Both the position numbers and the translations under genes were made by a program. Positions 13,430 through 48,309 of a stretch of DNA of 64,000 nucleotides are shown here, piece by piece. Source of the DNA: an uncultured Dehalococcoidia bacterium (GTDB lineage Bacteria > Chloroflexota > Dehalococcoidia > Lucifugimonadales > GCA-2712585). How positions within the stretch are numbered: the stretch's first letter is position 1; each line of letters begins with the position of its first letter. The DNA lies in contig OX638324.1 of the NCBI GenBank assembly GCA_951812825.1, positions 68,977 through 132,976 on the forward strand, read 5' to 3'. The notes below the pieces were generated by a model. It was not told the DNA's origin. It searched no databases and saw nothing but the letters and a program-made list of their open reading frames with translations.

Positions 13430-14413
13430 TTGTTAAAGAGCTTGGACGCCAAGGCCCTACGGATTTACCAGCCGATTACGGGAGAACTTCTTCAGGTAGC
13501 TGAGAATCTGAAGAGTCTGCGCCAAGGGCAAGACCAGCATATGACGCCCTTGCTAACGTACCTGTTCGACCGTGGGGGCAAGGGCATGCGTCCAGCCGTG
13601 ACCCTTCTGGCGTCCACCCTGTACGGAAAAGATGCGCCGGCAGCGATAACTATGGCCACCGCCGTAGAGCTTCTGCACATAGCAACGCTGATTCACGACG
13701 ATACCGTAGACAACTCGCTGACGCGCAGGGGGATGGACACAATCAGCAGCCGGTGGGACGAAAACGTGGCAATCTTGCTGGGTGACTATGTTTTTGCCGC
13801 CTCTGCGACGTTTGTTTGCGACACGAACAACATTCGGGTCATTCGGCGGTTTTCTGAGACGATCATGGACCTTTCCAGCGGACAGTTGATGGAATATTTC
13901 AACGGTCACAACGTGGAACAGACACGGAAGCTCTATGAGGACCGGATCTATCGCAAGACGGCGTCATTGTTTCGCACCGCGGCCGAATCGGGGGCAATTC
14001 TGGGAGGGGCGCCGGAGGAGGGGATAGACGCTCTCGCGCAGTATGGCTACAACATTGGCATGGCCTTTCAGATTGTGGACGATATTCTGGATGTGAGTGG
14101 CGACGCCGACGAGATTGGCAAACCTGTGGGGAATGATTTGCTTCAAGGAGTGTTGACACTTCCCAGCATCAAGCTGCTGGAACGGTACCCGACGGACAAC
14201 CCTGTTCGCGCTTTCTTCGCTAACCCGGACGAGAAGACCCACCTGAAAAATAGCCTCAAGATGATGCAGGAGTCGGACATCCTTGATGAGTGTCATGCCG
14301 ATGCCGAGAAGTATTGCGCGAAGGCCCTTCGGATACTTGAAGGGCTTCCGGATTCGCAATCTAGGGAGTCGCTCAGCATTCTGGCGTCCTACGTAACGAA
14401 GAGGCAGCGTTAG
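13430..14413 (+). CDS. Polyprenyl diphosphate synthase
   Basis: A trans-isoprenyl diphosphate synthase that adds isopentenyl diphosphate to an allylic primer. Both Asp-rich motifs are intact: HDDTVD (about residues 88-93) and DDILD (about 215-219); GGKGMRP near residue 50 binds isopentenyl diphosphate. The length, 327 residues, fits long-chain synthases such as the quinone side-chain enzymes, but product length cannot be read. The start is TTG 13430 with GGAG five bases upstream. It is co-oriented with metG and convergent with the amidohydrolase. A degenerate relative lies at 46628. Confidence 0.9.
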   Translation: MLKSLDAKALRIYQPITGELLQVAENLKSLRQGQDQHMTPLLTYLFDRGGKGMRPAVTLLASTLYGKDAPAAITMATAVELLHIATLIHDDTVDNSLTRRGMDTISSRWDENVAILLGDYVFAASATFVCDTNNIRVIRRFSETIMDLSSGQLMEYFNGHNVEQTRKLYEDRIYRKTASLFRTAAESGAILGGAPEEGIDALAQYGYNIGMAFQIVDDILDVSGDADEIGKPVGNDLLQGVLTLPSIKLLERYPTDNPVRAFFANPDEKTHLKNSLKMMQESDILDECHADAEKYCAKALRILEGLPDSQSRESLSILASYVTKRQR

Positions 14414-42249: not shown

Positions 42250-43209
42250 TCAGCCTTGAAGGTAGTTCTGGATGATGGGGAGGGCGGCGTCGGTGGGGTT
42301 TTCGGTGGCTTGGAGCCAGCAGATGCGGGGGTCTTTCAGCCGGAACCAGGAGTACTGGCGTCGGGCGATGCCGTGGGTGCGGAACTTGATGCGCTGGACG
42401 GCCTCTTCCAGGGACAGCTCGCCGGAGAGGTGGGCGGCGAGTTCCTGGTATCCTACGCCGGACATTGCGGGGAGGGATGGGGGGTAGCCGCTGTCGAGGA
42501 GGTCGCGGACTTCTTCGAGGAAGCCGCGCTTAATCATGTCGTCGACGCGATGGTCGATGCGGGTGTAGAGGTCTTCCCGGTTCATGGTGAGGCCGATGAC
42601 GAGGGCGTCGACGTCGGGGTTTTTGGGTCTGGGGTTTGTGGTGGGGTTCTTGCCGCCGGAGAGGTGGATTTCCAAAGCGCGTAGAACGCGTCGGGGGTTC
42701 TGGGGGTCAGTGCGCTCGGCAGTCACAGGGTCGATGGCCTGCAGAAGCTCAAAGAGGGGCCAGACGCCTCGGCGTTCCAACTGGAACTCCAGGTCGGCGC
42801 GTATGGCAGGGTTGGGGGGGGCTTTCGGGGGCTGCCAGCCTTCCAGGAAGGCCCACACGTACTGGCCAGAGCCGCCGACGAGGATGGGCAGGCAGCTGCG
42901 GGTCTGAACGTCTTTCACTGCGGCGCGGGCCTGCTCCAGAAAGAGGGCAAGGCTGTAGGTGTCGTCGGGGTCGGTGACGTCCAGGAGGTGATGGGGGACG
43001 AGGGCACGGTTTTCAGCACTGGGTTTGGCGGTTCCTACGTCCATGCCGCGGTAGACCTGCCGGCTGTCGGCGTTGATTATTTCGCCGTCCAGCTTTCGGG
43101 CGAGTTCCATGGCGAGGGCGCTCTTGCCGACGGCGGTGGGGCCGACGATGGCGATGAGGGGCGCTGGAGGGAGGGAGGGGGTCACGTCAGAAGCGGGACG
43201 GACGACCAC
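42250..43209 (-). CDS. miaA: tRNA dimethylallyltransferase
   Basis: Adds the isopentenyl group to A37 of tRNAs reading UNN codons. P-loop IVGPTAVGKSALAM (about residues 21-34); NADSRQVYRGMDVGTAKP; HHLLDVTDPDD; and GGSGQYVWAFLEG where most have GGTGLY. Length 319. Start GTG 43209 uses an AGGGGCG inside a repeat element as its only ribosome-binding sequence; GTG 43185 is an alternative that avoids the repeat. Last gene of the tsaC-to-miaA series. Confidence 0.93.
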   Translation of the reverse strand: MVVRPASDVTPSLPPAPLIAIVGPTAVGKSALAMELARKLDGEIINADSRQVYRGMDVGTAKPSAENRALVPHHLLDVTDPDDTYSLALFLEQARAAVKDVQTRSCLPILVGGSGQYVWAFLEGWQPPKAPPNPAIRADLEFQLERRGVWPLFELLQAIDPVTAERTDPQNPRRVLRALEIHLSGGKNPTTNPRPKNPDVDALVIGLTMNREDLYTRIDHRVDDMIKRGFLEEVRDLLDSGYPPSLPAMSGVGYQELAAHLSGELSLEEAVQRIKFRTHGIARRQYSWFRLKDPRICWLQATENPTDAALPIIQNYLQG

Positions 43210-43262: not shown

Positions 43263-44042
43263 TCAGTCCGTTCCCTTGGCCTCTGCGGTAAGTCTGACGA
43301 TTTGGGCGAACTGGGCGGCGTCTAGGCTTGCGCCGCCAACGAGGGCGCCCTGGATGCTGGGCTGTTCCAGGAAGGCCGTGACGTTTTCGGGGTTGACGCT
43401 GCCGCCGTACAGGACGGCGATTTTCTGGGCTGTTGCATCGTCGTAGAGGTTGGCAAGCTCCGTTCTTATTGCGCCGCCGGTGATGTCGGCGACGACGACG
43501 GGGGTGGCTGGGACGCCGGCGCCGATGGCCCAAACGGGCTCGTAGGCGATGACGACGTGGCGGGGGTCGGCGATGCCGGAGAGGCCGGTTTCCAGCTGGC
43601 GACGAACGACGGCTTCGGCGGCTCCCTGACGGCGCTGGCTGAGAGTCTCGCCGACGCAGATAATGGGGGTCAGGCCGGCGTCGACGGCGGCTTTCACCTT
43701 CTGTCCCACCACATGGTAGCCCTCCCGCATTATGTGGCGACGTTCTGAGTGGCCGACGATGACGTATCGGCAGAGTCCCTGAAGCATGGTCGGGGAAATT
43801 TCGCCGGTGAACGCCCCGGAGGTTTGGGGGTGGAGGTTCTGGGCTCCGAGAGCGATGTTAGAGTCTTTGAGCAGATCGTGGAGGGGGGCCAGGGAAATGA
43901 AGGGGGGGCAGAGGACTGTCTGGACACCGCCGGGGGGGTCGTCTTCGAGCCTGCGGCGCACATCGGAAGCGAGGGCCATCGCCTCCTGGACGGTGGTGTT
44001 CATCTTCCAGTTGCCGACGGCTAGAAGGGTCGCAGCTGACAT
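43263..44042 (-). CDS. tpiA: Triosephosphate isomerase
   Basis: Interconverts dihydroxyacetone phosphate and glyceraldehyde 3-phosphate. Catalytic residues: Lys in GNWKMN (residues 10-15), His in IVGHSERRH (about 95), Glu in AYEPVWAIG (about 167). The phosphate loop is YGGSVNPEN. Length 259. It follows apgM after 90 bases holding a repeat, and precedes miaA by 53 bases. Confidence 0.96.
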   Translation of the reverse strand: MSAATLLAVGNWKMNTTVQEAMALASDVRRRLEDDPPGGVQTVLCPPFISLAPLHDLLKDSNIALGAQNLHPQTSGAFTGEISPTMLQGLCRYVIVGHSERRHIMREGYHVVGQKVKAAVDAGLTPIICVGETLSQRRQGAAEAVVRRQLETGLSGIADPRHVVIAYEPVWAIGAGVPATPVVVADITGGAIRTELANLYDDATAQKIAVLYGGSVNPENVTAFLEQPSIQGALVGGASLDAAQFAQIVRLTAEAKGTD

Positions 44043-44132: not shown

Positions 44133-45341
44133 CTATGCGCCAAACTTGGAGATTTTGCCGGCGTGGGCGAGGGCCAGGGGCATCAGCTCTACGGCGCGGA
44201 TGGTCCCCATGACGCCGAGGGCGCAGGAGCGCTCGTTGAAGGAGGGAGGGCCTTGGGCCCTGGTCCAGGGGGACTTGAGGAGGAAGGGGACGGGGTGCCA
44301 GCTATGGTTGGCCATTACCGACGGGGTGGAGTGGTCGCCGACGATGAGAAATACGTCAGGTTTGAGGTCCATGATACGTGGTATGAAGGTATCCAGCTTT
44401 TCGAGAACGCGCACTTTTTCGTCGAAATTGCCGTCCTCGCCTGCGGTGTCGGCGGGTTTGTAGTGGATGAAGAAGAAGTCGTGGTCGTCCCAGTGTTTTT
44501 CGAGGGTTTCAACTTCGTCAGCAAAGGTCTCGCCGGTGGCGAGGACGTGCATGCCCAGGATGGTGGCGAGGCCGCGGTACATGGGGTAGGCGGCGATGGC
44601 GGCGGGGTTGAGCTGGTAGGCGTGGGCCATGGAGGGGAGGTGGGGCATGCCGGAGAAGCCGCGCAGCATGACCATGTTGGCCCGCTCTTCCTGAATTAGG
44701 GTGAGGCGGGCCTGGCGGACGAATTCGTTGGCGGCGTCGGCGGTGGCGCGGGCGGAAAGGGTGAGGGCCTTGACGTTCTGGAGGGCGACGCCGGTGCGCT
44801 GGGGGTCCATTTCAGTCAGATTTTCGGAGAGGCCGTTGCCTCTCATTCTGAGGACGAAGCGGTAGTCTTTGACGGGATATACGCGGATGTCCAGGGAATC
44901 GACTTGGATGCTGTCCAGCTCGCCGCAGAGGGGTTCGCTGAGGGCGGAGGGGATGCGTCCGGCGCGGCGGTCGAGGAGGAGTCCGTGGTCGTCTACGGTG
45001 CAGAAGTTGCCGCGGGCTACGATGTCGCCTTCCTGAAAGTCGATGCCGTTGACGCCCATGGCTTCGAGGGCGCCTCGGCCAATGACGTAGCGGAGGGGGT
45101 CGTAGCCGAAGAGGGCAAGATGGCCGGGGCCGCTGCCGGGAGTAACCCCCGGCATTACCGGGATGGTGAGGCCGAGGGCGCTTTCTCCGGCGGTGGCGTC
45201 GATGTTGGGGAGGCAGGCGGTCTCAAGCTCGGACCTTCCAGTTTTCGGGTGGGGCAGGCCGCCGAGGCCGTCTACGACCAGCATGACTATCTTGGACGAC
45301 GTGCCGACGCAGATGTCGCGAAGATGGGGAACGTCAATCAT
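44133..45341 (-). CDS. apgM: 2,3-bisphosphoglycerate-independent phosphoglycerate mutase, archaeal type
   Basis: Interconverts 3- and 2-phosphoglycerate without a bisphosphoglycerate cofactor; alkaline-phosphatase superfamily. Metal-binding and catalytic landmarks are IVMLVVDGLGGLPHPKTG (about residues 19-36), TPGSGPGHLALFGYDP with the Ser nucleophile, HYKPADTAGEDGNFDEKV, and IVGDHSTPSVMANHSWHPVP. The 402-residue length and these motifs match the archaeal ApgM group rather than the 510-residue GpmI. It lies between pgk and tpiA. Confidence 0.94.
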   Translation of the reverse strand: MIDVPHLRDICVGTSSKIVMLVVDGLGGLPHPKTGRSELETACLPNIDATAGESALGLTIPVMPGVTPGSGPGHLALFGYDPLRYVIGRGALEAMGVNGIDFQEGDIVARGNFCTVDDHGLLLDRRAGRIPSALSEPLCGELDSIQVDSLDIRVYPVKDYRFVLRMRGNGLSENLTEMDPQRTGVALQNVKALTLSARATADAANEFVRQARLTLIQEERANMVMLRGFSGMPHLPSMAHAYQLNPAAIAAYPMYRGLATILGMHVLATGETFADEVETLEKHWDDHDFFFIHYKPADTAGEDGNFDEKVRVLEKLDTFIPRIMDLKPDVFLIVGDHSTPSVMANHSWHPVPFLLKSPWTRAQGPPSFNERSCALGVMGTIRAVELMPLALAHAGKISKFGA

Positions 45342-45366: not shown

Positions 45367-46617
45367 TCATTTCGAGCGGAAGAGCCTGTTTGCAGGGGGG
45401 AGCGGCGAACCAACGAGCAGGGCTTTGGTCGGCAAGGCGGAGATGCCCGGCAGTTCCTTTCCTTCCAGGAACTCTATCATAGCGCCGCCTCCGCTGGACA
45501 CGTGATCCATGTGATGACCCAGCCCCAAGGACTCCACGGCTTTGGCCGTAGAGCCACCCCCGATTATAGTTGTCCCGTCCAGCGAGGCCAAGTGGTCGGC
45601 AATGGCGGTGGTGCCGGCGGAGAAGGGTTCTAATTCGAAGACTCCCAGTGGCCCGTTCCAGATTATGGTGCCGCATTGGTCAAGCAGGCGGCAGAATCGT
45701 TCAACGGTCTTGGGGCCGACGTCGAGGATGCGGAGATCCGATGGGACCTGGTCGGTGGGGTAGACGCCTATCCTCGACGGGTTGTCGCTGATTTCCGACG
45801 CTGCGACAACGTCGACGGGTAGATGGATGGACGTCGAGCGGTTGCGCATCAGCATGGCGGCGTAGTCCAGCAGATTGTCTTCCACCAGGGAGGCGCCCAC
45901 TGGTTTGCCCTGGGCTTTGAGGAAGGTGGCCGCCATGCCGCCGCCTATGAGGATGAGTTCTGAGCGGTTGACGAGGTTTTCAATGAGTTTCAGCTTATCG
46001 CTGACCTTTGCGCCGCCGAGGATGACGGCGAAGGGACGGCGAGGGGATTGGAGGGCCTCGCCCAAAACTTCGAGTTCTCGCTGGAGGAGCAGACCGGCGG
46101 CTGAGGGGAGAATGCGGGGCAGGCCGACAATGGAGGCGTGGGCACGGTGGGCGGCGCCGAAAGCGTCGAGGACGAAGATGTCCGCCAGGGAAGCCAGGGC
46201 GTTGGCGAACTGCGGATCGTTGGCTACCTCGCCGGGGTGGAAGCGGAGGTTTTCCAGCAGGACCACCTCGCCGGGGAGCATTTCTGCCACGTGGCTTGAT
46301 GCCTGTAGGCCGATGCAGTCCTGCAGGGCGTGTACGGGACGGCCCAGGAGGGCGGAGAGGCTGCGGGCCACGGGCTTCAGACGCAACGACTCGACGACGC
46401 GGCCTTTGGGTCGGCCCAGATGGGAACAGAGGACAACTTTGCAGTTGCGCTCCAGGAGATATTCGACGGTGGGAAGGGTGACACGGAGGCGGTGGTTGTG
46501 CTCGGAGGTTATTTCGGGGTTATTCGGGTCCAGGGGGACGTTGAAGTCGGCCCTGAGCAGCACGGTCTTGCCGGTGACATCCAGGTCGTAGAGGGTTTGC
46601 TTGTCGCGACGTGTCAT
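45367..46617 (-). CDS. pgk: Phosphoglycerate kinase
   Basis: Produces ATP from 1,3-bisphosphoglycerate. The N-terminal substrate-binding motif is LLRADFNVPLD (about residues 21-31); SHLGRPKGR (about 65-73); ATP-domain motifs VILGGAKVSDKLKLIENL and IIWNGPLGVFELEPF; GGGSTAKAVE near the C terminus. Length 416. Stop is 25 bases before apgM; start ATG 46617 is ten bases after the prenyl-synthase homologue. Confidence 0.97.
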   Translation of the reverse strand: MTRRDKQTLYDLDVTGKTVLLRADFNVPLDPNNPEITSEHNHRLRVTLPTVEYLLERNCKVVLCSHLGRPKGRVVESLRLKPVARSLSALLGRPVHALQDCIGLQASSHVAEMLPGEVVLLENLRFHPGEVANDPQFANALASLADIFVLDAFGAAHRAHASIVGLPRILPSAAGLLLQRELEVLGEALQSPRRPFAVILGGAKVSDKLKLIENLVNRSELILIGGGMAATFLKAQGKPVGASLVEDNLLDYAAMLMRNRSTSIHLPVDVVAASEISDNPSRIGVYPTDQVPSDLRILDVGPKTVERFCRLLDQCGTIIWNGPLGVFELEPFSAGTTAIADHLASLDGTTIIGGGSTAKAVESLGLGHHMDHVSSGGGAMIEFLEGKELPGISALPTKALLVGSPLPPANRLFRSK

Positions 46618-46627
46618 ATGGATGGAG

Positions 46628-47677
46628 TTAGGACCTCTCGTCTGAATTGTGGGGCTTTACAAGATTGCGGGCAAAGTCGAGAAGTGGCTGAAGAGCTTCC
46701 TCTTCCAGGCCCGCGGCCTGAAGGGCGGCTTCAGCCTGGGTGATGTAGTCAGCGACCGTTGATTCAGCGTCGGCTCGGACGTCGTTGGCCTCAAGGAGGT
46801 TAAGAAGCTGCTGCTGGTCATCGGGTTCGAGGACTCGCTTGAAGTATATATCGCCAAGGGCGCGCTTGGTGCTCAGATCGGCGGACTCAAGGAGCGCCGC
46901 AATGGGGTAGAGCTTCTTCTTGTTCAGGAACTGGGGGCTGGCGGTCCCGCCGTTTTGGTTCCCCCACACAGCCTGGACATCCTGTCTGACCTGATAGGCG
47001 AGGCCGAGCTTACGGCCGGCTTCCTGGAAGGCCGCGACGGCGTCCTGGCGGCCGGTGGCGGCGAGGGCGCCGAGGGCCATGGCGCAGGAGGTTACGCTGC
47101 CGGTGAGGTTGGCGGCCATCTTCAGGTAGGAGGAGCGGGAGATGTCGAGACGTTCCTGGTGGGAAAGCTCCAGATACTGTCCCTCGCACATTCGGATACA
47201 GGCCTCATCTAGGATGCCGAGGGCCTGGAGAACTCTGTCCAGAGGGAGGTTGGCGTCAGAAAGGCGGAAGAGGGCGCTGCGGCCAAGGGCGTGGAGGCCA
47301 TCGCCCACGTTGATGGCCTGGCCCGGGCCCCAGACCCACCAGACGGAGGGGCGAGACTCCTGGCGTGGGTTGCCCTCCTGAACGTCCTTGTGCACCTCTA
47401 TGAAGGTGTGGACGAGTTCCATGGCCGCCGCCGCGGGGAGGGCGGGTTGATGGCTTCCGCCTACGGCCTCGGAGGAGAGGAGGGCCAGGAGGGCGTAGGG
47501 GCGCAGGGGTCGGGGCTTGGGGAGGGGTTCGCCCTGCTTGTCGGCCCAGCCAAGCTGGTAGAGCATCATGTCGTAGAGGAGTCCCTCTCGGGGCTGTAGT
47601 ATGGCCTCGAGCTCCGAGTCCAGGTCGGCGTGATATTGCTCCAGGTCCTGGATAATGGACGGCATGTATTCCCTCAT
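46628..47677 (-). CDS. Polyprenyl synthetase homologue with degenerate Asp-rich motifs
   Basis: A 349-residue member of the trans-isoprenyl diphosphate synthase fold: LRPYALLALLSSEAVGG, then HTFIEVHKDVQEGNPRQESR and PSVWWVWGPGQAINVGDGLH, and a second region AYQVRQDVQAVWGN. The order and spacing are those of a GGPP-synthase-like enzyme. However, the first motif is KDVQE (97-101) instead of DDxxD and the second QDVQA (232-236) instead of DDxxD, so metal-diphosphate binding should be impaired. Start ATG 47677 overlaps the tsaC stop as ATGA. Perhaps a non-catalytic partner of the enzyme at 13430; that is speculation. Confidence 0.85.
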   Translation of the reverse strand: MREYMPSIIQDLEQYHADLDSELEAILQPREGLLYDMMLYQLGWADKQGEPLPKPRPLRPYALLALLSSEAVGGSHQPALPAAAAMELVHTFIEVHKDVQEGNPRQESRPSVWWVWGPGQAINVGDGLHALGRSALFRLSDANLPLDRVLQALGILDEACIRMCEGQYLELSHQERLDISRSSYLKMAANLTGSVTSCAMALGALAATGRQDAVAAFQEAGRKLGLAYQVRQDVQAVWGNQNGGTASPQFLNKKKLYPIAALLESADLSTKRALGDIYFKRVLEPDDQQQLLNLLEANDVRADAESTVADYITQAEAALQAAGLEEEALQPLLDFARNLVKPHNSDERS

Positions 47678-48309
47678 AGGAGCGCTCCATCTATGGCTAC
47701 GCCGCAGACTTTCTGTATTTCCCTGAGGCTGATGGCGCCGGTGCGGAGTATTATGGGACGTTCTCCCGTTATGTCAACCACGGTTGAAGGCAGGCCTCGG
47801 TGGGCGGGGCCGCCGTCCAGGACGTGGTCTATGGCGTCTCCCAGAGTACGGTTAACGTCCTGGGCTGTGACGGGGTCGGGGCCGCCGCTGAGGTTGGCGC
47901 TGGTGCCTACGATGGGCTTGCCCAGGGCGCGGGCAAGGGCGCGGGGGACTTCGTGGTCGGGGACGCGAACGCCCACGGCGCCGGTGGGGCCCAAGACGGG
48001 GTCGGGCAGGCCGGGGGCAGGTTTCAGAACGAGGGTCAGGGGACCGGGCCAGAAGGCATCCGCCAAAGCGTGGAAATGGGGGGAATCGGGCCGGCCGACG
48101 AGTTCAACGTTGTCGGGCTCGGCGAGGAGGAGGGGGACGCCCTTGTCGGCGCTTCTGCCCTTCACTTCGAGGATTCTGGCGAGGGCGTTTAGGGAGAAGG
48201 AGTCGCATCCCAGGCCGTATAGGGTATCGGTGGGGTAGGCTACCACCCCATTGCTGCGGAGTAACTCCGCCGCCAGTTCTATACCTCTCTCTATATCAAG
48301 CGAAAGCAT
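47674..48309 (-). CDS. tsaC: Threonylcarbamoyl-AMP synthase (Sua5/YrdC)
   Basis: Makes threonylcarbamoyl-AMP for the t6A37 modification of tRNAs reading ANN. YrdC domain: VVAYPTDTLYGLGCD (about residues 22-36), KGRSADKGVPLLLAEP, FWPGPLTLVLKP, VGVRVPDHEVPRAL, PIVGTSANLSGG. Length 211, without the Sua5 C-terminal domain. No ribosome-binding site before ATG 48309; an extended -10 (TGCTATACT) lies about 55 bases upstream. Leads the tsaC-prenyl homologue-pgk-apgM-tpiA-miaA series. Confidence 0.93.
   Translation of the reverse strand: MLSLDIERGIELAAELLRSNGVVAYPTDTLYGLGCDSFSLNALARILEVKGRSADKGVPLLLAEPDNVELVGRPDSPHFHALADAFWPGPLTLVLKPAPGLPDPVLGPTGAVGVRVPDHEVPRALARALGKPIVGTSANLSGGPDPVTAQDVNRTLGDAIDHVLDGGPAHRGLPSTVVDITGERPIILRTGAISLREIQKVCGVAIDGALL

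Follow-up and report, generated by a model that had tools for sequence, protein, structure and literature searches.

The gene under study lies on the minus strand (46628-47677) of the window, that is, of the whole stretch of 64,000 nucleotides that was analysed. It has an ATG start, encodes a protein of 349 aa and is called PSI here, for pseudo-trans-isoprenyl-diphosphate synthase, on the basis of its open reading frame, its PF00348 match, its AlphaFold2 model and its PDB matches. PSI is preceded by the gene for TsaC, the L-threonylcarbamoyladenylate synthase (47674-48309; TIGR00057, 184.7 bits), and followed by those for phosphoglycerate kinase (PGK; 45367-46617; PF00162, 468 bits), cofactor-independent phosphoglycerate mutase (apgM; 44133-45341; NF003160, 543 bits, above the cut-off), triosephosphate isomerase (TPI; 43263-44042) and the tRNA dimethylallyltransferase MiaA, an enzyme that uses DMAPP (miaA; 42250-43209), all of them on the minus strand and the last two being conserved operon members named from their translations. 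This glycolysis operon is as tight as an earlier note on this DNA had claimed: the start codon of PSI overlaps the stop codon of TsaC in an ATGA (47674-47677), and PGK starts 10 nt past the PSI stop. The gene order guaA / TsaC-PSI-PGK-apgM-TPI-miaA recurs in the 60 nearest genomes.

PSI belongs to the trans-isoprenyl-diphosphate synthase (trans-IPPS) superfamily, scoring 93.7 bits for PF00348 against a cut-off of 27. Its AlphaFold2 model, computed with 46 aligned orthologues, has a pLDDT of 94.0 and a pTM of 0.93, and the best PDB matches are 1wy0 (Z 38.4) and 3nf2 (Z 38.1). Foldseek superposes PSI on 3nf2 with a TM of 0.84 and, together with VIA-align, places the full length of the protein among the trans-prenyl synthases; the Streptomyces coelicolor structure 3nf2 is also the nearest solved relative (E 1e-33). 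The fold is thus kept despite broken motifs, as had been proposed from the letters alone, and VWWVWGPGQAINVGDG is found at residues 112-127 where it had been described.

The central observation of the earlier note, that both Asp-rich motifs are broken, stands. They read KDVQE (residues 97-101; 47375-47389, minus strand) and QDVQA (residues 232-236; 46970-46984, minus strand), so that PSI has neither the DDxxD that marks the first motif of catalytic trans-prenyltransferases nor the DDxxD or DDxxG that marks their second. The first and fifth Asp of the first motif (FARM) and the first Asp of the second (SARM) are metal ligands. At the first site, which is HDDIQD in intact relatives, PSI retains His96 and Asp98 and has lost the first and fifth Asp; at the second, Asp233 is retained and the first Asp is lost. 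One detail of the claim has to be amended, as the norm for the second motif in this subfamily, in the intact relatives and in PDB 3nf2, is usually DDxxG and not DDxxD; what QDVQA lacks, compared with its own subfamily, is therefore the first Asp and the Gly. The other residues that mark a catalytic enzyme are missing as well: in the substrate-binding GKxxRP position (residues 56-62; 47492-47512, minus strand) Lys is replaced by L58 and Arg by Y61, and Lys191 of the KT motif is replaced by Leu (L191). Judged from these residues, PSI is very probably not an ordinary elongating synthase.

PSI is a real gene and no artefact or isolated pseudogene. In SAR202-type Dehalococcoidia, 111 non-redundant eroded copies share the TsaC-PSI-PGK-apgM-TPI-miaA locus. 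What would have refuted the earlier note, a gene confined to one assembly and interrupted by frameshifts, is contradicted by this conservation across the group, nearly all copies being free of frameshifts. An assembly error or a lone pseudogene is ruled out by these 111 copies at one locus together with the dN/dS values given below. Scanning of 84,980 species genomes with the pattern GP[AG]Q[AG]IN[AV]G returned 172 relatives, and the 80 of these that were listed have titles that name Chloroflexota, Dehalococcoidia or SAR202, the one exception being a metagenome-assembled genome labelled Pirellulales. The contig from the latter (L150), with a gene and operon of the Chloroflexota type, is probably mis-binned.

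The 111 eroded copies were compared, residue by residue, with 71 intact relatives. The first, second and fifth Asp of the FARM persist in 35, 96 and 18 of the eroded copies, respectively, the first and second Asp of the SARM in 9 and 99, the Arg of the RP position in 10 and the Thr of the KT motif in 31, whereas His96 is kept in 111/111. The same positions are fixed in the intact relatives, except in two of them at His96. That catalytic positions fixed throughout the 71 intact relatives are broken in 111 copies at the same locus is more than chance. The sites of the first and fifth FARM Asp and of the first SARM Asp vary among D, G, E, A, S, R and Q. Conservation relative to the intact copies is lower in the SARM (0.56) and FARM (0.71) and higher in the helices 118-142 (1.46) and 268-278 (1.59) and in residues 279-284 (2.56); while the metal- and substrate-binding residues vary, His96, Asp98, Asp233, helix E and the segment W113-G127 are kept.

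This pattern bears on whether PSI could be a changed enzyme, whose half-kept sites (His96, Asp98, Asp233, Lys253/255 and Asp/Glu170) run another reaction or sense a prenyl diphosphate. The invariance of His96 and the frequent retention of the second Asp of both motifs would fit such an activity, as would the presence of Asp/Glu170 in 96% of the representatives and of Lys255, within the conserved loop LNKKKLYP after the second motif (residues 251-258; 46904-46927, minus strand), in 98%. However, the active site of an enzyme stays uniform across a group, and here the metal-ligand Asp sites vary freely, GKxxRP and KT are lost too, and the f70 lineage (L185, L187, L252 and L255) has lost even the second Asp and still keeps the gene. 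A changed enzyme is, on balance, quite improbable.

The TsaC/PGK locus carries an intact synthase in other orders of the class (20 genes with 11/11 catalytic residues); PSI is therefore an eroded orthologue of an operon-borne short-chain trans-prenyl-diphosphate synthase. In trees built without the catalytic columns, the eroded copies group with the intact-looking locus copies L130 and L149, and the hopanoid-linked copies discussed below are separate (bootstrap 95, SH-aLRT 78); these and other short-chain copies stand apart from the eroded ones, the deeper branches being weakly supported. The intact L149, in which two residues are unread (X), is the sister of the eroded L139 with support of 100/97. 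The AU test does not reject (p 0.17) a tree in which all eroded copies are united, as after a single loss of catalysis.

Two segments hint at the order of events. The first, WWVWGPGQAINVGDG (residues 113-127; 47297-47341, minus strand), has a QAIN.GD part inherited from the locus ancestor, and W113, G117, P118, Q120, I122, N123 and G125 are invariant in alignment A1. W114 and P118 of this segment are typical of the eroded clade and are present too in the intact L130. The second, KRALGDIYFKRVLEPDD (residues 271-287; 46817-46867, minus strand), is a basic motif, KRxLGxxYFKRVLEP, which is highly conserved in the eroded copies, occurs in the intact L149 and in the early-eroded L139 and L105, and is not conserved in the other intact relatives. 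The occurrence of W114/P118 in intact L130 and of the basic motif in intact L149 suggests that the new surface may have arisen before catalysis was lost. Like the short-chain trans-IPPS at the same locus of other Dehalococcoidia (NF041169/GGPPS-like; nearest structure 3nf2), PSI has the orthologous position, the fold, 30-45% identity and the QAINxGD and CEGQ segments; it differs from them, since their catalytic residues are complete and its own are eroded, with W114, P118 and the basic motif as typical features. The basic motif is not universal, as the copies of G009 (L364:1063-2058) and G047 (L363) are shortened in the stretch after the second motif; both keep QAINAGD and the operon position.

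These shortened copies, the progressive and lineage-dependent course of the erosion and the four genomes without a detected copy are what would be seen if PSI were a functionless, decaying remnant carried along by a packed operon. This is very unlikely: nearly all copies are free of frameshifts and stops, some positions are more conserved than in the intact relatives, the fold is predicted with high confidence even in the most eroded lineage, f70 (pLDDT 92.5), and the dN/dS within the genus equals that of the intact paralogue (0.14-0.33 for PSI and 0.17-0.31 for the paralogue, with dS near saturation). The total branch length is 17.2 for PSI and 15.0 for the intact short-chain paralogue. The fold of PSI, its helix E and its clade-specific surface are under purifying selection.

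The genome from which the window comes has three PF00348 genes: PSI, a gene of the long-chain type at 13430-14413 (plus strand; PF00348, 219.8 bits; TIGR02748, 235 bits) and a short-chain gene near 1.986 Mb. The earlier note had pointed to the 13430 gene as an intact paralogue, and its motifs, HDDTVD and DDILD, are intact indeed; its product, however, is a distant, HepT-like protein of the long-chain type with 23% identity to PSI, and it is excluded as the closest paralogue by the third gene (G000:C1:1986066-1987037), which is intact and 36% identical to PSI. This short-chain paralogue lies about 1.9 Mb from PSI, inside a hopanoid cluster with the order HpnD, squalene-hopene cyclase, HpnA, HpnG-like phosphorylase, HpnH and short-chain synthase (L362:5375-13137; G000:C1 ~1979374-1987136).

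A second intact short-chain gene accompanies the eroded copy in 54 of 57 genomes, compared with 5 of 21 genomes in which the locus copy is intact. The Fisher p of 9e-10 takes no account of the relatedness of the genomes, and the genome lists were put together manually, so that the direction alone is reliable. No second short-chain gene was seen in G017, G019 and G025, which have an eroded copy in assemblies that are 82-91% complete, and none was found in G054, whose locus copy looks intact. Because a closer, short-chain paralogue co-occurs with the eroded copies and the 13430 product belongs to a distant long-chain subfamily, the idea that the latter is the natural partner of PSI is not supported.

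Rate covariation, calculated over 23 genomes and 43 branches, does not single out a partner. Between PSI and the short-chain paralogue, the residual covariation falls short of significance (r 0.18, p 0.24), and the values with TsaC (0.40), LONG (0.39) and PGK (0.34) are slightly higher; among the 23 genomes, there was no signal specific to either paralogue, a result that tells neither for nor against a physical complex. That TsaC and PGK at least equal the paralogues would accord with an adaptor outside prenyl metabolism, a homodimeric scaffold that docks PGK, TsaC and MiaA through its Trp/helix-E and basic surfaces. The TsaC/PGK synteny persists around the copies of G009 and G047, which have lost the C-terminal part, and around those of f70, in which no catalytic residue is left; this would suit the explanation as well. 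But neighbours in an operon are expected to covary, the unrelated pair LONG-PGK reaches 0.52, and the synteny is older than the catalytic loss and hence no pointer to a new role; such an adaptor therefore seems unlikely.

We give an even chance to the role suggested in the earlier note, in which PSI, itself non-catalytic, would be the partner or the regulator of another synthase. Prenyl synthases are dimers, and in this family helices E and F lie at the dimer interface. Given this architecture and the known heteromers of catalytic and non-catalytic subunits, a heteromer or a regulator is the simplest reading; as expected of a non-catalytic heteromer subunit, PSI has an IPPS fold that lacks the Asp-rich motifs, and its genome also encodes a catalytic paralogue that is intact. 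In SAR202-type Dehalococcoidia, the second short-chain synthase (that of the hopanoid cluster in the window's genome) would supply the catalysis, and the operon copy has lost the metal-ligand Asp residues, the binding residues of GKxxRP and the KT motif. PSI would pair with a catalytic prenyl synthase in a heteromer, for which the short-chain paralogue is the first candidate and the 13430 product the second, and may adjust chain length, stability or flux. Against a partner role stand the retention of His96, Asp98, Asp233 and Lys255, which might point to altered chemistry, the distance of the candidate partner genes from PSI, the weak covariation with the short-chain paralogue and the three incomplete assemblies that have an eroded copy but no second short-chain gene. 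A more detailed scenario is speculative and on the whole doubtful: the class-wide operon-borne synthase would have acquired, while still catalytic, a second, non-catalytic role through a surface for docking or regulation (W114/P118 and KRxLGxxYFKRVLEP); once the hopanoid-linked paralogue had taken over the chemistry, it would have survived more than once for that role alone and would link isoprenoid flux to lower glycolysis or to the modification of tRNA.

Plants, animals and a few Gram-positive bacteria are known to have prenyl-synthase subunits without catalytic activity, and the small subunit of mint GPP synthase and HexA of the Micrococcus luteus hexaprenyl synthase are precedents. PSI would be an independently evolved bacterial variant of this kind, and a literature search found no paper that names its family. 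Like the plant small subunit (mint (LSU.SSU)2, PDB 3kra/3krf), PSI has a trans-IPPS fold without Asp-rich motifs alongside a catalytic paralogue, whereas its sequence is too distant for membership of that group (3kra chain B, E 1e-7, against 1e-33 for 3nf2) and the plant partner is known while that of PSI is a candidate. Like HexA and HepS (M. luteus and B. subtilis), it would be the non-catalytic subunit of a bacterial heteromeric prenyl synthase; unlike them, it is not adjacent to its candidate partner, and membership of their family was rejected, as 46/46 members scanned match PF00348 alone and no other Pfam family. Known heteromeric prenyl synthases pair a catalytic with a non-catalytic subunit and are thus precedents for PSI (PMC7839719). 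An analogy from an unrelated enzyme is mammalian PRPSAP, a duplicated subunit with substituted active-site residues in the PRPS complex, where such non-canonical paralogues are kept within the heteromer (PMC12238573).

In this abundant group of marine and groundwater bacteria, a single fixed locus shows the whole course of erosion, from intact copies to fully eroded ones, which makes testable the general question of how an enzyme subunit becomes a pure regulator and whether a new surface precedes the catalytic loss. Annotated as "polyprenyl synthetase", the gene makes the isoprenoid capacity of these genomes look larger than it is.

Three further observations concern PSI and its relatives. PSI was considered as a polyprenyl transferase cargo of Family 2 encapsulins (NF041169) and rejected with 204.5 bits against a cut-off of 450, which the intact short-chain paralogue does not reach either (299.5 bits); the genes beside PSI are TsaC, PGK, apgM, TPI, miaA and guaA, with no encapsulin gene among them. 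The f70 lineage has 0/11 catalytic residues at the locus, and the same genomes carry intact HpnH-linked copies elsewhere. Finally, L248, L251 and L257, from other orders of the class, are divergent synthases of a separate lineage, with an NDxxD-like second motif, an altered GKxxRP and 7-9 of the 11 residues.
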